Under the pieces are notes generated by a model. It was given only the letters and a program-made list of their open reading frames with translations. It did no database searches and was not told the origin of the DNA. Below, in pieces: positions 24,296-30,895 of a stretch of 49,078 nt of DNA. The stretch's first letter is position 1, and every line of letters begins with the position of its first letter. The DNA lies in the NCBI RefSeq assembly GCF_016793225.1, contig NZ_JAEUMN010000188.1, positions 1 to 49,078 of the forward strand, given 5' to 3'. The position numbers and the translations under genes are program-made. The stretch is from Phenylobacterium sp. GTDB lineage: Bacteria > Pseudomonadota > Alphaproteobacteria > Caulobacterales > Caulobacteraceae.

Positions 24296-24904
24296 TCAGC
24301 CGCCCCAGCGGCCGCCGCGCATGCTGTGGTTCGACATCCGGCCGCCGAAGCCGCCGCGGCTGACCACGCTGGTGCGCGACATCATCTTCTCGGGCGGCCG
24401 CACGATGTCGGGGCGCTCGAAGCTGCGGTTTCCGATCCTGGCCCGGCCGGTGGAATAGTCGGTCCAGACGCGCCCGCCGCCATAGGAGTAGTAGCCGCCG
24501 TCGCGCCAGTCGCGGTACATGCCGCGCCCGCCCCAGCCGCCGTCCAGCATGCGGCCGACGACGAACCCGGCGATCAGCGGCCCCCAGATGCTGCCGCCCC
24601 CGCTCGCCTGCTGGCGGGGCACGCACTGGCCCTCGCCATAGACGTCCTCGCAGCTCTTCTGGTCGTTCCAGCTGGCGGCCTTCTGATCGTCGGCGAGGGC
24701 CTGCTTCTCGGCCTTGTCGCAGACGTCGTCGGGGACCTCGTTCTTGTCCTTGCACTCGGCCAGCGACTGGTAGGCGTAGGCGTCGACCGAGGGGCCGGGA
24801 TTTTCGATGCGGACGTTGTCGGCCGGGCTGTCGCCGCAGGCCGTGAGCGTCACCCCGCCCATCGCCATGAGGGAGGTCAGCGCCAGGGTCTTCGAGCGTT
24901 TCAT
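24296..24904 (-). CDS. DUF1190 (YgiB/YjfM-like) lipoprotein
   Basis: A 202-residue lipoprotein: signal peptide with lipobox LTAC (about 20-23). A DUF1190 core follows, with its cysteine pairs in the patterns ECKDKNEVPDDVCDKAEKQA and SCEDVYGEGQC, then a glycine-rich hydrophobic segment and a Gly/Arg/Ser-rich tail (RGGFGGRMSNHSMRGG). Function is unknown; E. coli YjfM and YgiB are homologues. It is third in the leftward DUF2491-DUF350-DUF1190 set, 18 bases after the DUF350 gene. Confidence 0.85.
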   Translation of the reverse strand: MKRSKTLALTSLMAMGGVTLTACGDSPADNVRIENPGPSVDAYAYQSLAECKDKNEVPDDVCDKAEKQALADDQKAASWNDQKSCEDVYGEGQCVPRQQASGGGSIWGPLIAGFVVGRMLDGGWGGRGMYRDWRDGGYYSYGGGRVWTDYSTGRARIGNRSFERPDIVRPPEKMMSRTSVVSRGGFGGRMSNHSMRGGRWGG

Positions 24905-24922
24905 GCCAGATCCTCGCGGCCG

Positions 24923-25339
24923 TCAGGCCGTCATGCAGGCGGCGTTCAGGATGCCGACGGTGATCGAGATGAACATCAGGTAGAGCGCGGTCGACACCTC
25001 GCCCCGCTCGATCCGCGCCGAGACGTCCGGCAGCGCGATGCGGCGGACCAGCCAGAAGGTGGCGATCTGGATCACGCCCGCCAGCAGGGCCCAGGCGACG
25101 AATTCGGGGAGCGAGTGGGTGTTGGCGAGCGCGGAGGCCAGCGGAATGACGTAGCCGATCAGCGCGCCCCCCAGGGCCACGGCCGCCGCGGGGTTGCCGG
25201 CGCGGATCAGGGCGCCCTCGTCGTGCGGCGTGATCCAGCGGTAGGCCGCCTTGAAGATCAGCGTGAAGCCGCCGGCGGCCAGGAAGGCGAGGAGGAAGGC
25301 CAGGGCGCCGGTGGCGAAGGCGTTGGGATCGAAGGTCAT
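24923..25339 (-). CDS. DUF350 (YjfL-like) inner-membrane protein
   Basis: A 138-residue protein with four predicted membrane helices (about 10-32, 50-72, 80-101 and 115-135) arranged as two DUF350-like halves. Function is unknown. I chose the ATG at 25339 (MTFDPNAFATG) because AGAGGGA lies just upstream; an in-frame ATG nine codons earlier (25366) adds charged residues unlike the family. Charged residues between helices 2 and 4 (RIALPDVSARIERGEVS) face the cytoplasm in homologues. It belongs to the same leftward operon as DUF2491 and DUF1190. Confidence 0.85.
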   Translation of the reverse strand: MTFDPNAFATGALAFLLAFLAAGGFTLIFKAAYRWITPHDEGALIRAGNPAAAVALGGALIGYVIPLASALANTHSLPEFVAWALLAGVIQIATFWLVRRIALPDVSARIERGEVSTALYLMFISITVGILNAACMTA

Positions 25340-25369
25340 GCAGTCCCTCTCGAGCTGGCGTTTCACGCC

Positions 25370-26014
25370 TTAAGCTTCGAATTCTCCCACATTGAGCGGG
25401 ATTCCCACCATCACCTCGTGGGTCAGGTCGCCGCCCTCCGGCTCCATCTCGATGGCCAGGAGCAGTTCGCGTCCGTCACCCGGAAGGTCCCGGGCGAAGA
25501 GCATGCAGGTCTGGTAGATGCGCCGCGCCCGGGCGCCCGAGCGATCGTCGTAGACGCTCTCCCAGAAGCTGACGGGCTCCTGCCGCGCGTCCGCGTCGCC
25601 GAACCAGAAGCGGCGGTACTCGGGCAGGTCCTGCCCGCCGAACGCGGGCGCCCGCAGCCGGTCCGCCCAGCGGCGCCGCGCCGCGCCGTCGGGCGGGTAG
25701 TCGCTGGACCACGGTCCGAAGAGGGTGAAGTCGTCGGCGCCCTGGCCCTCGGGGTCGGGGCTGACCATCTGCAGCATGAGATCGTGTTCGGTGTAGAAGC
25801 GGTGCACGAAGCCGTCCGGCCCCAGGTCGATGCGGCCCTGGGCCACGATCTCGAGCACGTCGGTGTCGAGGGCGAACTTCGCGTCCGACCCGTACCGGCG
25901 CCAGGCCAGGGGATCCAGGCGGACGGTGCGCCCGATGGTGATGTTGCGGACCACGGGGATCGCCTGATCGTCGCCCTGGTCGCGCTTTCCGCCGAAAAGT
26001 CCCCGGAAGATCAC
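25370..26014 (-). CDS. DUF2491 (YjfK-like) protein
   Basis: A 214-residue soluble protein, first gene of the leftward arm of the yjf-like module. No signal peptide or membrane segment is seen; it starts VIFRGLFGGKRDQGDD from a GTG preceded by AAGGACGG. It matches DUF2491 in overall layout (IGRTVRLDPLAW..., FYTEHDLMLQMV, an FWF/FWES region) and in genomic partnership. Function is unknown; homologues always travel with DUF350 and PspA-like proteins. The gap to the DUF350 gene is 30 bases. Confidence 0.82.
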   Translation of the reverse strand: MIFRGLFGGKRDQGDDQAIPVVRNITIGRTVRLDPLAWRRYGSDAKFALDTDVLEIVAQGRIDLGPDGFVHRFYTEHDLMLQMVSPDPEGQGADDFTLFGPWSSDYPPDGAARRRWADRLRAPAFGGQDLPEYRRFWFGDADARQEPVSFWESVYDDRSGARARRIYQTCMLFARDLPGDGRELLLAIEMEPEGGDLTHEVMVGIPLNVGEFEA

Positions 26015-26092
26015 GTCGTCCGTCCTTGCTGAACGCGGACCATACGCGCATCTTGCGTGTTGTCAAATGTACGCGTATGGATACGTGAACGC
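26015..26092. promoter_or_regulatory. Divergent promoter region with palindromic repeats
   Basis: The 78 bp separating the two arms of the yjf-like module contain the inverted repeat CCATACGCG (26040-26048) / CGCGTATGG (26072-26080). The right arm overlaps a perfect 8-bp palindrome TACGCGTA (26070-26077), and a further ATACGTG starts at 26081. The repeated TACGCG/TACGTG half-sites look like operators able to control both arms. The DUF2170 protein with its DNA-binding-like N-terminus is a candidate binder. Confidence 0.6.
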
Positions 26093-26761
26093 ATGGGACG
26101 GCGCAGGACGGACAAGGCGGCGGGCCTCAGCCCCGCAGAACGGACCCGGCTCTGGCGCGAGGAGCGCCAGCGGCTCGGGCTCGTGAAGCTGGAGCTCTGG
26201 GTTCCCCCCGCAGCCAGGTCCGACATCCAGGCCGCCGCCCGCGCGATCATCACGGCGTCGAGCCGCGGACCGGCGCTGATGAGAAACCCCGACCCTCCGC
26301 AGGGATCATTCCAGATGGACCATGTCATCGACACCGATTGGTCGGTGAAGAGTCTTGCCGAAGCGCTGTCCGAGACCCGCCTCCTGCGCGAGGGCGAACT
26401 GACCGCGCGCGTGCTGGAGGGGACGGACCCCGTGCTGCAGGTCACCATGCACGAGTTCGGCGACCTGCCGGTCTTCATGTCGGTGGGCGCCGAGCAAATC
26501 GTCGTGAGCGCGCTGCTGTGGCCGGTGGACGAGCAGAAGGACCAGGCGGCGTTCAACGTCTTCCTGCTGAAGGCGCAGAAGCTGGTGCCGCTCTCGAACT
26601 TCGGAATCACCACCATCGCCGGCCGCGACTACTACGAGGTGTTCGGCGAACTGTCGTGCAAGACGACCCTGCAGACGGTCATCATCGAACTGCGCATGCT
26701 GGCGGAGAACGCGATCCGCGCCGCCAGCGACCTGCGCGACGATTTCGCCTCGGCGGCCTGA
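26093..26761 (+). CDS. DUF2170 (YjfI-like) protein with N-terminal DNA-binding-like extension
   Basis: A 222-residue protein. Residues ~75-222 match the DUF2170/YjfI family (VKSLAEALSETRLLREGELTARVL... through VPLSNFGITTIAGRDYYEVFGELS). The first ~60 residues (SPAERTRLWREERQRLGLVKLELWVPPAARSDIQAAARA) resemble the arginine-rich strand-helix-helix pattern of MazE-like/DUF3018 and ribbon-helix-helix antitoxins. E. coli YjfI lacks this extension. The ATG at 26093 is used; an upstream GTG (26057) would translate the palindromic promoter region. First gene of the rightward arm, 13 bases before the PspA gene. The DNA-binding role is inference. Confidence 0.8.
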   Translation: MGRRRTDKAAGLSPAERTRLWREERQRLGLVKLELWVPPAARSDIQAAARAIITASSRGPALMRNPDPPQGSFQMDHVIDTDWSVKSLAEALSETRLLREGELTARVLEGTDPVLQVTMHEFGDLPVFMSVGAEQIVVSALLWPVDEQKDQAAFNVFLLKAQKLVPLSNFGITTIAGRDYYEVFGELSCKTTLQTVIIELRMLAENAIRAASDLRDDFASAA

Positions 26762-26774
26762 GCCCGGAGCCCAC

Positions 26775-27539
26775 ATGTCGATCTTCACCAAGCTCATCAC
26801 CCTCTTCCGCGGCGCCAGCTACGAGGCCGGCGCGGCGGTCGTCGACGCCAACGCGCTGCGCATCCTCGACCAGGAGATCCGCGACGCGGACAACGCGCTG
26901 GGGCGCGCCCGCGACGACCTGGCCACGCTCGTCGCCAAGCGGCGCATGCTGGAAAAGGAGATCCAGGGCCTGAAGGACCAGTCGGCCCGGTACGAGGGCT
27001 CGGCGCGCGCCGCCCTGGCGAAGGGCGACGAAGGCCTCGCCCGCGAGGTGGCCGTCCGGATCGCCGACCTGGAGACCGACATCGGCGTCAAGACCCCGCA
27101 GCTCGCCGACATGCGCACCGCCGAGGAGCGCCTGCACCAGACCATCGCCCAGACGCAGCAGAAGGTCGAAAACCTGCGCCGCGAGATCGACGTGGTGAAG
27201 GTCAACGACAGCGTCCAGCGCGCCCAGGCTTCCGTCGCCTCCCGCGGCGGCTCGGCGCAGGCGTCGCTCGGCTCGGCCGCGGACAGCCTCAAGCGGATCA
27301 AGGAACGCCAGGCGATCGCCGACGAGAAGTTCCGCGCCGCCGGCGAGCTGGAGGACAAGCGCACCGGCGCCGACCTCGACGCCAAGCTGGCCGCCGCCGG
27401 GATCCTGCCGGGCCACCAGAGCGCCGACGACATCCTGGCCCGCCTGAAGGCCCCCGCCGGCGAGCCGATGCCCCAGCTCGAGGCCCCGCGCCTGCAGCTC
27501 GAGGCTCAGCCGGTCCCGGTCGAGCGGAAGGAGAGCTGA
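26775..27539 (+). CDS. PspA/IM30 family protein (YjfJ-like)
   Basis: A 254-residue PspA/IM30-family protein, predicted to be almost entirely coiled coil up to about residue 180. It starts MSIFTKLITLFRGASYEAG, an amphipathic membrane-binding helix, and ends in a proline/glutamine-rich tail. PspA-family proteins form ESCRT-III-like polymers on damaged inner membrane. As in E. coli yjfJ it lies in a DUF2170-DUF2491-DUF350-DUF1190 neighbourhood rather than with pspBC. It is followed by an inverted-repeat element, then the ATP-grasp gene. Confidence 0.9.
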   Translation: MSIFTKLITLFRGASYEAGAAVVDANALRILDQEIRDADNALGRARDDLATLVAKRRMLEKEIQGLKDQSARYEGSARAALAKGDEGLAREVAVRIADLETDIGVKTPQLADMRTAEERLHQTIAQTQQKVENLRREIDVVKVNDSVQRAQASVASRGGSAQASLGSAADSLKRIKERQAIADEKFRAAGELEDKRTGADLDAKLAAAGILPGHQSADDILARLKAPAGEPMPQLEAPRLQLEAQPVPVERKES

Positions 27540-27557
27540 GGGTCCCGCTCTCCTTAC

Positions 27558-27688
27558 GTCATCCCGCGGCTTGTCCGCGGGACCCATGTCGGCGACCGCG
27601 CGAGCCACGAAACGAAGGCGCGGGGCGAATACCCACGCACGCGCCTGCGAGCGGGACGATGGGTCCCGCGAACAAGTCGCGGGATGAC
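27558..27688. repeat. 131-bp inverted-repeat element, type B
   Basis: Termini 27558-27587 and 27659-27688 are 30 bases each and match as reverse complements at 28 of 30 positions (GTCATCCCGCGGC ... GGGACCCAT). Each arm can itself form a hairpin (CCCGCGG-CTTGT-CCGCGGG). The ends match those of the 15474-15621 element. It sits between the PspA-like and ATP-grasp genes and could attenuate or terminate transcription between them. Confidence 0.85.
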
Positions 27689-27715
27689 GAGCAGGGGTCC
27701 GGAGATTCCGACACC

Positions 27716-28879
27716 ATGAAACGCATCAAGACCCCCGAGCGCCCCGGCTGGGACGAGAAGGCCGAGCGGCTCGGCTTCACGTGGCGCCATATCGACGGGG
27801 CGCGGTACTGGGACGAGCGGGCCTACTACGCGTTCAGCCTGCCCGAGATCGAGGAGGGGCTCGAGGCGCCCGCGCGCGAGCTGCACGCCCTGTGCCTGGA
27901 CCTCGTGGACGAGGTGGTGAAGTCGGAAGAGCTGATGGCGAAGCTCGCCATCCCCGAGGCCAGCCGCGACGACGTGGCTGAGAGCTGGGCGCGGCGCGAT
28001 CCCTCGCTCTACGGCCGGTTCGACTTCGCCTACGACGGCGAGGGTCCGGCGAAGCTCTTCGAGTACAACGCCGACACGCCCACCAGCATCTACGAGTCCG
28101 CGGCCTTCCAGTGGATCTGGCTGGAGGACATGATGGCGGCCGGGCGCCTGCCCGCCAACGCGGACCAGTTCAACAGCCTGCACGAGAAGCTGCAGTCGCG
28201 CTTCCGGGCGATCTTCCCGGCGGGCGGCTTCGTCCACTTCGCCAGCGATCCCGACGCGGTCGAGGACCGGCAGACGGTGAAGTACCTCGAGGACATCGCC
28301 TCCCAGGCCGGGATCGAGCCCAAGTTCACGCCCGTGGGCGAGATCGGCCTGACGGCGGACCAGAAGTTCGTGGACCAGGACGGCTACGTCATCCAGGCGC
28401 TCTTCAAGCTGTACCCCTGGGAGGAGATGCTGCGGGAGGAATACGCCGCCAACATCAAGGCCTCGGGGACGCAGTTCCTGGAGCCGGCGTGGAAGGCGGT
28501 GCTCTCGAACAAGGGCGTTCTGCCGCTGCTCTGGGCGCGGCATGAGGGCCACCCGAACCTGTTGCCCGCCTACTTCGAGGACGATCCCCGGGCCGCCGAC
28601 CTGGGCCGCTCGTTCGTGCGCAAGCCGCTGTTCAGCCGCGAGGGCGCCAACATCGAGCTCGTGAAGGCCGGCCGACGGGCCCGCGTGCTGGACCAGGGCT
28701 ACGGCGAGGAGGGCCACATCCGCCAGGCGCTCCACGAGGTCACCGCCTTCGACGGGAACTATCCCGTGATCGGCGCGTGGATCGTGGGAGACGAGCCGGC
28801 CGGCATCGGCATCCGCGAGGACCGCAGCCGCGTCACCCGCAACCTCAGCCGCTTCGTTCCCCACGCGATCATCGGGTAG
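27716..28879 (+). CDS. Glutathionylspermidine synthase-like ATP-grasp protein (YjfC-like)
   Basis: A 387-residue homologue of the synthetase half of glutathionylspermidine synthase (the GSP_synth family, like E. coli YjfC and YgiC); there is no amidase domain. Recognisable segments are YAFSLPEIEEGLEAPARELHALC near the N-terminus, FDFAYDGEGPAKLFEYNADTPTS (about 102-124), LFKLYPWEEM, and FVRKPLFSREGANI (ATP-grasp). The family forms amide bonds between peptides and amines, but the substrate here is unknown. GGAG lies 11 bases before the ATG at 27716. Last gene of the rightward arm, separated from the PspA gene by a repeat. Confidence 0.88.
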   Translation: MKRIKTPERPGWDEKAERLGFTWRHIDGARYWDERAYYAFSLPEIEEGLEAPARELHALCLDLVDEVVKSEELMAKLAIPEASRDDVAESWARRDPSLYGRFDFAYDGEGPAKLFEYNADTPTSIYESAAFQWIWLEDMMAAGRLPANADQFNSLHEKLQSRFRAIFPAGGFVHFASDPDAVEDRQTVKYLEDIASQAGIEPKFTPVGEIGLTADQKFVDQDGYVIQALFKLYPWEEMLREEYAANIKASGTQFLEPAWKAVLSNKGVLPLLWARHEGHPNLLPAYFEDDPRAADLGRSFVRKPLFSREGANIELVKAGRRARVLDQGYGEEGHIRQALHEVTAFDGNYPVIGAWIVGDEPAGIGIREDRSRVTRNLSRFVPHAIIG

Positions 28880-30362: not shown

Positions 30363-30412
30363 GGCGGTTGGGATAGTGGACTTCTGCGGCGACCGGAATA
30401 GTGTCCGCAGCC

Positions 30413-30895
30413 ATGCCTGCGGCGGCCCTCTACATGGACGCGGAGATCCGGCCCAACCGGTCGCTGTCCGACCGCGGCTTCATCATCCTGATCAGCCTGA
30501 TCACCGTGGCCAACTGCGCTTCGGCGCTGGTGTTCCTGCGGATGGGCGCGGTCTTCGTCCTGCTGCCGTTCCTGGCGATCGACGTGCTGGCGGTGGTCGT
30601 GGCGTTCATGGCCAGCTTCCGCGCCGGCCGCATCGTCCAGCGGGTCCAGGTCAGCCCCGCCGAGGTGACCGTCACCTACGAGAGCCCGAAGGAGACCCGG
30701 GTCGTCTGGGAGAGCCCTACGGCGTTCACCCGGGTGGCCACCGAGCGGGACGAGGAGGACCGGGTCACGGCCCTGCGGCTCGCGCTGTCGGGGCGGGAGA
30801 CGCCGGTCGCGCAGGCGCTCAGTCCTGGCGAGCGGGCGGCCTTCGCACGCGCCCTGGAAGACGCGATCTGGAAGGCTCGCCGGCACCGCGACTGA
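30413..30895 (+). CDS. DUF2244 membrane protein
   Basis: A 160-residue protein with two adjacent membrane helices near the N-terminus (about 22-41 and 43-65) and a C-terminal cytoplasmic beta-rich domain, the DUF2244 layout. Function is unknown. DUF2244 genes often neighbour nth in alphaproteobacteria, and do here (divergent across the SDR gene). The start is uncertain: ATG at 30413 or ATG at 30434 (MDAEIRPNRSLS). Confidence 0.82.
   Translation: MPAAALYMDAEIRPNRSLSDRGFIILISLITVANCASALVFLRMGAVFVLLPFLAIDVLAVVVAFMASFRAGRIVQRVQVSPAEVTVTYESPKETRVVWESPTAFTRVATERDEEDRVTALRLALSGRETPVAQALSPGERAAFARALEDAIWKARRHRD

Follow-up and report, generated by a model that had tools for sequence, protein, structure and literature searches.

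The locus and its genes

The DNA considered here, hereafter the window, is a contig of 49,078 nucleotides from Phenylobacterium sp. (assembly GCF_016793225.1, contig NZ_JAEUMN010000188.1). Between positions 24296 and 28879 it carries six genes in two divergent arms, and the subject of this work is the DUF2170 gene of that cluster, whose product has an additional N-terminal domain, together with a short palindrome conserved in the promoter of the same gene. The left arm (minus strand) is led by the gene for a DUF2491 protein (YjfK-like; 25370-26014; Pfam PF10679, E 3.9e-48), followed by those for a small DUF350 membrane protein (YjfL-like; 24923-25366; PF03994, E 6.6e-35) and a DUF1190 lipoprotein (YjfM/YgiB-like; 24296-24904; PF06693, E 1.1e-30), whose N-terminus shows, by eye, a short signal stretch and then a lipobox-like LTAC. 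The right arm (plus strand) begins with the DUF2170 gene (YjfI/BacA-like; 26093-26761), continues with a PspA/IM30 family gene (YjfJ/BacB-like; 26775-27539; PF04012, E 1.6e-48), which is the sole PspA match in a scan of the window's genome (97.5% complete), and ends with an ATP-grasp ligase of the GSP_synth family without an amidase domain (YjfC/YgiC-like; 27716-28879; PF03738, E 3e-148). The DUF2170 match (PF09938, E 9.3e-48) falls in a plus-strand open reading frame (ORF) of 26057-26761, in which 26093 has been adopted as the start, and occupies the C-terminal part of the gene (26339-26761). The ORF of the ligase spans 27659-28879; since its alignments to YgiC and YjfC begin at residues 19-20, a start at 27716 is more likely than that of the long frame at 27659.

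All six matches lie far above the Pfam cut-offs, and exactly 78 bp separate the DUF2491 start (26014) from the DUF2170 start (26093). The initial annotation of this DNA, made from the sequence alone, had described just such a cluster of six families around a 78-bp control region and had related it to the yjfIJKLMC genes of Escherichia coli; K-12 indeed carries all six families in yjfI-J-K-L-M-C, on a single strand. It had also counted DUF2170 among two soluble unknowns, a description which is now out of date, as this domain has been assigned a CesT/Tir-type chaperone fold (PMC11237479; PMC10948618; both cited throughout for the available part of their text). The DUF2170 part of the protein models well, and the model confirms the published relation: its Foldseek matches are 8q8o BacA (E 3.3e-13) and then ExsC, AmyR, SigE, and YbjN.

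An additional domain in the DUF2170 protein

The DUF2170 domain begins about 80 residues into the protein. The part before it (26093-26320, plus strand), about 60 residues followed by a linker, is a putative DNA-binding domain of MazE-like type with the core R..WR..R..LGLVKLELWVP and then a helix; the earlier identification of the gene holds for the DUF2170 domain and had made no mention of this one. A pattern from the N-terminal part alone, used to scan 84,980 species genomes for the window's type of DUF2170 protein, gave 271 stretches encoding relatives. Eighty of these were retained as domain-bearing loci: 44 Caulobacteraceae-like (16 nearer to the window and mostly Phenylobacterium, 28 mostly Brevundimonas) and 36 gammaproteobacterial, with the closest relatives of the window locus being 88-92% identical to it. 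The domain recurs in proteins of Brevundimonas, Pseudomonas, Halopseudomonas, Lysobacter-type, and Endozoicomonas origin. It is translated and under selection, because its codons change mostly silently: pairwise comparison of the window with 13 relatives gave 1121 synonymous to 359 non-synonymous differences in the domain and 131 to 549 in the linker, where the ungapped comparison inflates the figure of 549. Among 23 DUF2170 genes in a sample of 200 Pseudomonadota genomes, five carry the domain and 18 do not, and YjfI of E. coli (133 amino acids) is likewise without it. An alignment of the family (A4) comprised the window, 37 of 39 listed loci, and eight others, L136 and L137 being left out; in L136 (8004-8282, from a metagenome bin of Phenylobacterium) the reading frame of DUF2170 stops prematurely, at 93 amino acids and past the N-terminal domain, which is either a real break or an assembly error.

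Searches of Pfam, NCBIfam, and solved structures gave no named family for the domain save a weak match to the NCBIfam BacA model NF050185 (206 positions), which spans both domains (residues 27-224) at 159.8 bits, below its curated cut-off of 300. The BacA crystal chain in 8q8o has 146 amino acids and starts near the DUF2170 domain. A relation to antitoxins was found by profile comparison. When 63 distinct sequences among the 80 N-terminal domains were compared by hhalign with six MazE-like antitoxins (six of eight, L207 with an internal stop and the incomplete L210 being left out), a probability of 94 and a P of 8.6e-8 were obtained over 33 columns. The domain profile, run over the 200 genomes, recovered all five DUF2170 fusions, plus five places with weaker matches; four of the latter are, by eye, MazE-like ORFs of 74-79 amino acids directly followed by MazF-like ORFs, and one MazE-like ORF found in this way (G004) is also matched by the Pfam MazE-like model. 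Judged from these comparisons the domain shares ancestry with MazE-like antitoxins, and it would bind DNA.

The control region and its palindrome

Two sigma70-like promoters can be recognized in the control region (26015-26092), which was read from its sequence and aligned with 14 of the 16 Phenylobacterium-like loci (L134 and L138 left out). The rightward one is TTGCGT-N17-TATGGA (26053-26081, plus strand), with TTG and TAT blocks invariant in the alignment, and the leftward one is TTGACA-N16-TATGGT (26039-26066, minus strand), with an invariant TGTCAA block. A conserved putative operator element, TGTCAAATGTACGCGTATGGATAC, lies at 26061-26084, and its core palindrome TACGCGTA (26070-26077) overlaps the spacer and the -10 box of the rightward promoter and stands 3 bp from the leftward -35 box. 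The 78-bp spacer had been noted before; the operator and its likely regulator had not. The end of the rightward -10 box is 11 bp from the ATG at 26093, and in most of 12 gammaproteobacterial promoters (L167-L202; judged by eye) a TAGTCT-like box is found about 7 bp before the ATG; these distances suggest that the mRNA of the regulator gene is probably leaderless. Another candidate operator, the 9-bp inverted repeat CCATACGCG/CGCGTATGG, was rejected, as its left arm is not kept in the relatives, where only the right-hand TACGCGTAT element is conserved.

Written as YACRYGTR, the palindrome is present in the promoter at all 80 domain-bearing loci, exactly in 55 and with one mismatch in 25, while control windows from the same loci contained it exactly in 4 of 1,528 cases and with one mismatch in 235 (239 within one mismatch, or 16%). 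The exact form occurs in 16/16 Phenylobacterium-like, 36/36 gammaproteobacterial, and 3/28 Brevundimonas-like promoters. Given that 16% of control windows come within one mismatch, the case for the Brevundimonas-like loci rests on a longer motif, GTTACNYGTTDCATGWAAC, which 27 of their 28 promoters contain and which is absent from the rest of those loci. The gammaproteobacterial loci have the form YACATGTR in 36/36 promoters and two copies of it in 35, with a spacing of 22 bp in 27 of the 35; shuffled sequences lead one to expect 0.33 and 0.0 such loci, respectively. From the Phenylobacterium-like group the shuffle test took in 15 of 16 loci, L134 being without upstream DNA.

The site follows the domain. 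In genomes sampled regardless of the domain, an exact site precedes five of six genes that have it (the sixth, in G119, has a one-mismatch site) vs. 0 of 20 genes that lack it (Fisher p 9e-5). In genes held out until the motif had been fixed, the exact site was found in 4/4 with the domain vs. 0/5 without. The former are a gene of another alphaproteobacterial family (G223), which has two exact sites, and three Pseudomonas plasmid genes, each with TACATGTA 27 bp before the start; the latter are three Rhizobium plasmid genes and two new genes from the search that gave G223 (exact site in 0/2). A conserved palindrome in the gene's own promoter thus goes with the putative DNA-binding domain, in alpha- and gammaproteobacteria alike. 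Within single genomes the sites are rare: the 24-bp element has a single site in the 4.6-Mb genome of the window at up to three mismatches, and the tandem gammaproteobacterial pattern occurs in G190 at one place, the DUF2170 promoter.

A cluster assembled from smaller modules

The six families were searched in the same 200 Pseudomonadota genomes (E <= 1e-3), and DUF2170 was found in 22, DUF2491 in 12, DUF1190 in 23, GSP_synth in 38, DUF350 in 54, and PspA in 67 of them. All six occur together in nine genomes, always on one contig and within about 6 kb, against 0.003 expected under independence, a figure which the kinship of the genomes makes a guide only. PspA is present in 22/22 DUF2170 genomes and GSP_synth in 22/23 DUF1190 genomes. 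The sub-modules also live apart, DUF2170 being missing from 14/23 DUF1190, 29/38 GSP_synth, and 3/12 DUF2491 genomes, and DUF2491 from 13/22 DUF2170 genomes. Since the families cluster in nine genomes and yet also occur separately, the full cluster is assembled from smaller modules. The initial annotation had suggested that the six genes form one system and had proposed phylogenetic profiling as a check; the profile now run over Pseudomonadota supports one system by co-occurrence and synteny of the six families, and it also reveals a partly independent distribution. Of the 14 control genomes, those of E. coli and Caulobacter were the only ones in which DUF2170, DUF2491, DUF1190, and GSP_synth were detected.

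The three alphaproteobacterial six-gene clusters in the sample (G000, G119, and G043, the last with its ligase in the left arm) are all divergent, and the other six are all colinear. The same divergent six genes occur in 43 of the 44 Caulobacteraceae-like loci, the exception (L134) ending at a contig edge, and among the four genomes sampled from the family of the window, G020 and G147 lack DUF2170. Three Rhizobium plasmids have a divergent DUF2491-channel / DUF2170-PspA arrangement in which DUF2170 is without the N-terminal domain, and this form rules out a divergent layout unique to the Caulobacteraceae. As both the relatives and these plasmids have divergent forms, the layout represents an old variant within the Alphaproteobacteria and is not peculiar to the window. 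An insert of about 1.1 kb separates the arms in 9 of the 28 Brevundimonas-like loci, and each of the four inserts that were read holds a TVGYGD channel-like ORF.

DUF2170 is rare in Alphaproteobacteria (5/289 genomes, vs. 22/200 in the phylum sample), a scarcity likely to reflect transfer or repeated loss. On plasmids it was matched in 73 records, 52 of them from Rhizobium, and six of the 73 were read. The Pseudomonas plasmids L231-L233, one of which is pQBR103, have genes for domain-bearing DUF2170, PspA, and DUF2491 side by side, in some cases with a rhomboid protease gene intervening, and this arrangement is a mobile version of the module. With regard to the alignments, A5 comprised the window and 47 of 69 listed fragments, and a DUF2491 alignment (A1) intended as a query of the genome collection was dropped as too divergent.

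The window also yielded some observations outside these subjects. A long hairpin resembling a repetitive extragenic palindrome lies between the PspA and ligase genes (27546-27715), with arms at 27557-27587 and 27659-27689 that are 93.5% alike and a predicted RNA fold of -106 kcal/mol (z -6.6). The PspA-ligase gap measures 16 bp in L124, L128, L134, and L136 and 168-236 bp in other relatives; because of this variation the hairpin is probably a mobile repeat, which may damp expression of the ligase. At its gathering thresholds Rfam matched no RNA family in the window. A gene for a DUF2244 membrane protein (30401-30895) neighbours those for an endonuclease III-like protein and a short-chain dehydrogenase (Pfam).

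A putative repressor, proposed to sense PspA

The reading which best fits these data, and to which we give a probability of roughly 0.74, is that of a PspA-centred envelope-stress cluster in which the first rightward gene codes for an autorepressor, a DUF2170 fusion that binds YACRYGTR and probably senses PspA. The protein would consist of an N-terminal MazE-type DNA-binding domain fused to a dimeric CesT/Tir-type chaperone fold. Its DNA-binding domain would occupy YACRYGTR and hold the DUF2170-PspA-ligase operon low, and the chaperone fold would serve as the input, most likely by binding the neighbouring PspA. Membrane damage would draw PspA into polymers and so alter the ratio of free PspA to DUF2170 protein, whereupon the operon would be derepressed; the products (the PspA polymer, the membrane protein, the lipoprotein, the DUF2491 protein, and a ligase probably making peptide-polyamine amides) would then protect the envelope. 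As the site adjoins the leftward -35 box, it may also set the DUF2491-DUF350-DUF1190 arm. Our confidence in autoregulation by the DUF2170 protein, which draws on the domain and its site, is high, and in titration by PspA as the signal it is moderate.

Published data on the related bac genes of Pseudomonas are consistent with this proposal. In P. aeruginosa PA14 a transposon insertion in bacA raised five operon partners 6.1 to 13.5-fold, and the authors suggest a regulatory role of BacA exerted through protein contacts (PMC10948618). An interaction of BacA with BacB, the PspA protein, has been predicted at 0.981 in a 2026 study (PMC13092808, available part), and antitoxins are described as controlling the transcription of their own operon (PMC4803016, available part). 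An envelope role of the cluster is plausible from PspA, the lipoprotein, and the membrane protein, and from two papers: BacA and BacB have been linked to biofilm and osmotic traits (PMC10948618), and in E. coli evolved to 45 C yjfIJKL are raised, probably via a promoter deletion according to the authors (PMC12492005, available part), which is in line with such a role.

Several points weigh against the repressor. Because bacA was disrupted by a transposon insertion, the raised partners may have other causes, and the steps of DNA binding and PspA titration are ones that we infer. Pfam gives no match, PF11455 included, for the window's N-terminal domain alone, and Foldseek matched no solved structure (best E 4.7) to a monomer model of the 60-residue domain, which is helix-extended-helix with a predicted local distance difference test score (pLDDT) of 81; because the model is without a solved match, a ribbon-helix-helix fold is not demonstrated. 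As to the site, YACRYGTR was defined after most of the loci counted had been viewed, and the held-out genes number nine only, the Pseudomonas trio and the Rhizobium trio each being close relatives. A one-mismatch site also precedes 4/20 genes without the domain, and for this reason the 25 one-mismatch Brevundimonas-like promoters are weak on YACRYGTR alone. The form of the site differs between groups. The tandem gammaproteobacterial pattern has a single occurrence outside the DUF2170 promoter in each of G130 and G140 (19/22 genomes have none), with the DUF2170 promoter of G130 having two CACGCGTG sites in its stead, and it is missing from G196, where the spacing is shorter. Lastly, a sigma54 promoter has been proposed for bacA (PMC10948618); it was set aside here, being matched in 4 of the 36 gammaproteobacterial loci vs. 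35 for the palindrome pair.

The gene cluster has been described before (Ravi et al., 2024; PMC11237479); what appears to be new is the regulator together with its site. The open-licence literature gave no prior description of either, though subscription journals may hold one; the main text of the BacA paper (PMC10948618) uses none of the terms 'DNA-binding', 'ribbon', and 'RHH', and the available part of Ravi et al. has no DNA-binding fusion of DUF2170, only a separate ribbon-helix-helix (RHH) gene in another operon group. A wider suggestion, for which we would claim rather less than even odds, is that the fusion is the missing switch of the large class of PspA systems without PspF, made from a captured toxin-antitoxin DNA-binding domain and a type-III-chaperone-like fold, with PspA as the toxin-like partner and co-regulator. 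If this is true, membrane damage would control transcription through PspA polymers as the toxin:antitoxin ratio does in toxin-antitoxin operons, and a DNA-binding domain of such operons would have been reused for envelope-stress control. The matter bears on stress sensing and gene control wherever PspA occurs without PspF, and on the role of BacA in the biofilm physiology of Pseudomonas, described yet unexplained. A further suggestion is that the part acting on DNA is missing from the published BacA structure, whose chain is limited to the DUF2170 part. The combination of a domain with a short palindrome makes a simple test possible in several genera.

Alternative explanations

The likeliest alternative is the function given in the initial annotation, an envelope sensor or repair system with no special regulator, by which a membrane target would receive a polyamine- or peptide-like group; we regard it as possible, though on the unlikely side. 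The gene content of the cluster speaks for it, and so does the ligase. The solved relatives of this enzyme are 7uk8 YgiC (E 1.1e-120 over 385 residues) and 7uk6 YjfC (E 1.6e-113), to both of which it is related over its full length and without an amidase domain. E. coli YgiC and YjfC are reportedly peptide-spermidine ligases, to go by the title of a 2023 study by Pederick et al. The pattern R-x-D...E-x-N, whose residues we take to be the substrate and metal residues of GspS, is kept in the alignment of the ligase to that protein. Ligation of polyamines or peptides fits what the sequence predicts, an ATP-grasp enzyme with YgiC and YjfC as its best solved relatives. However, no evidence was found for a membrane-bound acceptor, and the proposal accounts for neither the conserved operator nor the extra domain.

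It is also conceivable, if rather improbable, that the DUF2170 protein works as an activator, or has a dual role in which it activates the left arm and represses its own. The core site would suit such a protein by its position: it overlaps the rightward -10 box, and the leftward -35 box is 3 bp away. The Pseudomonas genetics argue for repression, since the partners are raised without BacA (PMC10948618), but left-arm families are absent near 35/36 gammaproteobacterial loci, so that those data are silent on the left arm.

A third explanation makes DUF2170 purely a chaperone or partner of PspA (as in the published CesT/Tir-PspA dyad), with an unrelated regulator at the palindrome and some other job, e.g., protein binding, for the N-terminal domain. 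Proteins without the domain are indeed common (18 of 23 genes, and the 133-residue YjfI), and the fold matches chaperones. Nevertheless, the exact site tracks the domain (5/6 vs. 0/20), and does so again in the held-out plasmid genes, and the domain is kin to antitoxins, a class reported to control its own operon (PMC4803016); we therefore consider a pure chaperone to be quite improbable. That the N-terminal extension is a start-codon artefact is scarcely credible: internal starts exist (e.g., ATG 26315) and the 8q8o chain begins near the DUF2170 domain, but a pattern from the extension retrieved 271 relative-encoding stretches, its codon changes are biased to synonymous ones, and both the 206-position NCBIfam BacA model and the RefSeq-type annotation of three plasmid relatives include it.

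Comparison with known systems

The repressor proposed here can be set beside several described systems. MazE-like antitoxins (PF11455) share with the N-terminal domain a R..R..G(L)...WVP core between two helices, and antitoxins have been described as regulating their own operon (PMC4803016). Unlike them, the window's domain has no Pfam match and is fused to DUF2170, and the next gene encodes PspA and not a toxin. The yjfIJKLMC genes of E. coli comprise the same six families and differ in lying on a single strand in one order; their YjfI (133 amino acids) is without the N-terminal domain, and no exact YACRYGTR was found in its upstream 200 bp.

The third group of Ravi et al. (PMC11237479) has the same DUF2170-PspA pair, with a GspS-like ATP-grasp ligase, DUF350, DUF1190, and DUF2491, and the DUF2170 gene of the window is directly followed by its PspA gene as in that group. 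There a potassium channel gene is present as well, whereas the window has no channel between or directly beside its arms; the TVGYGD channel-like insert of the Brevundimonas-like loci is the extra gene mentioned by these authors. The window differs further by its two divergent arms and by the DNA-binding-like N-terminal domain of its DUF2170 protein. In 35 of the 36 gammaproteobacterial loci the other four families were not seen in the DNA around the locus, while the window has them. The published BacA chain covers the DUF2170 part only; what the bac operon (BacA/BacB) and its kin have in common with the window is the DUF2170-PspA pair, the N-terminal domain, and the palindromes.

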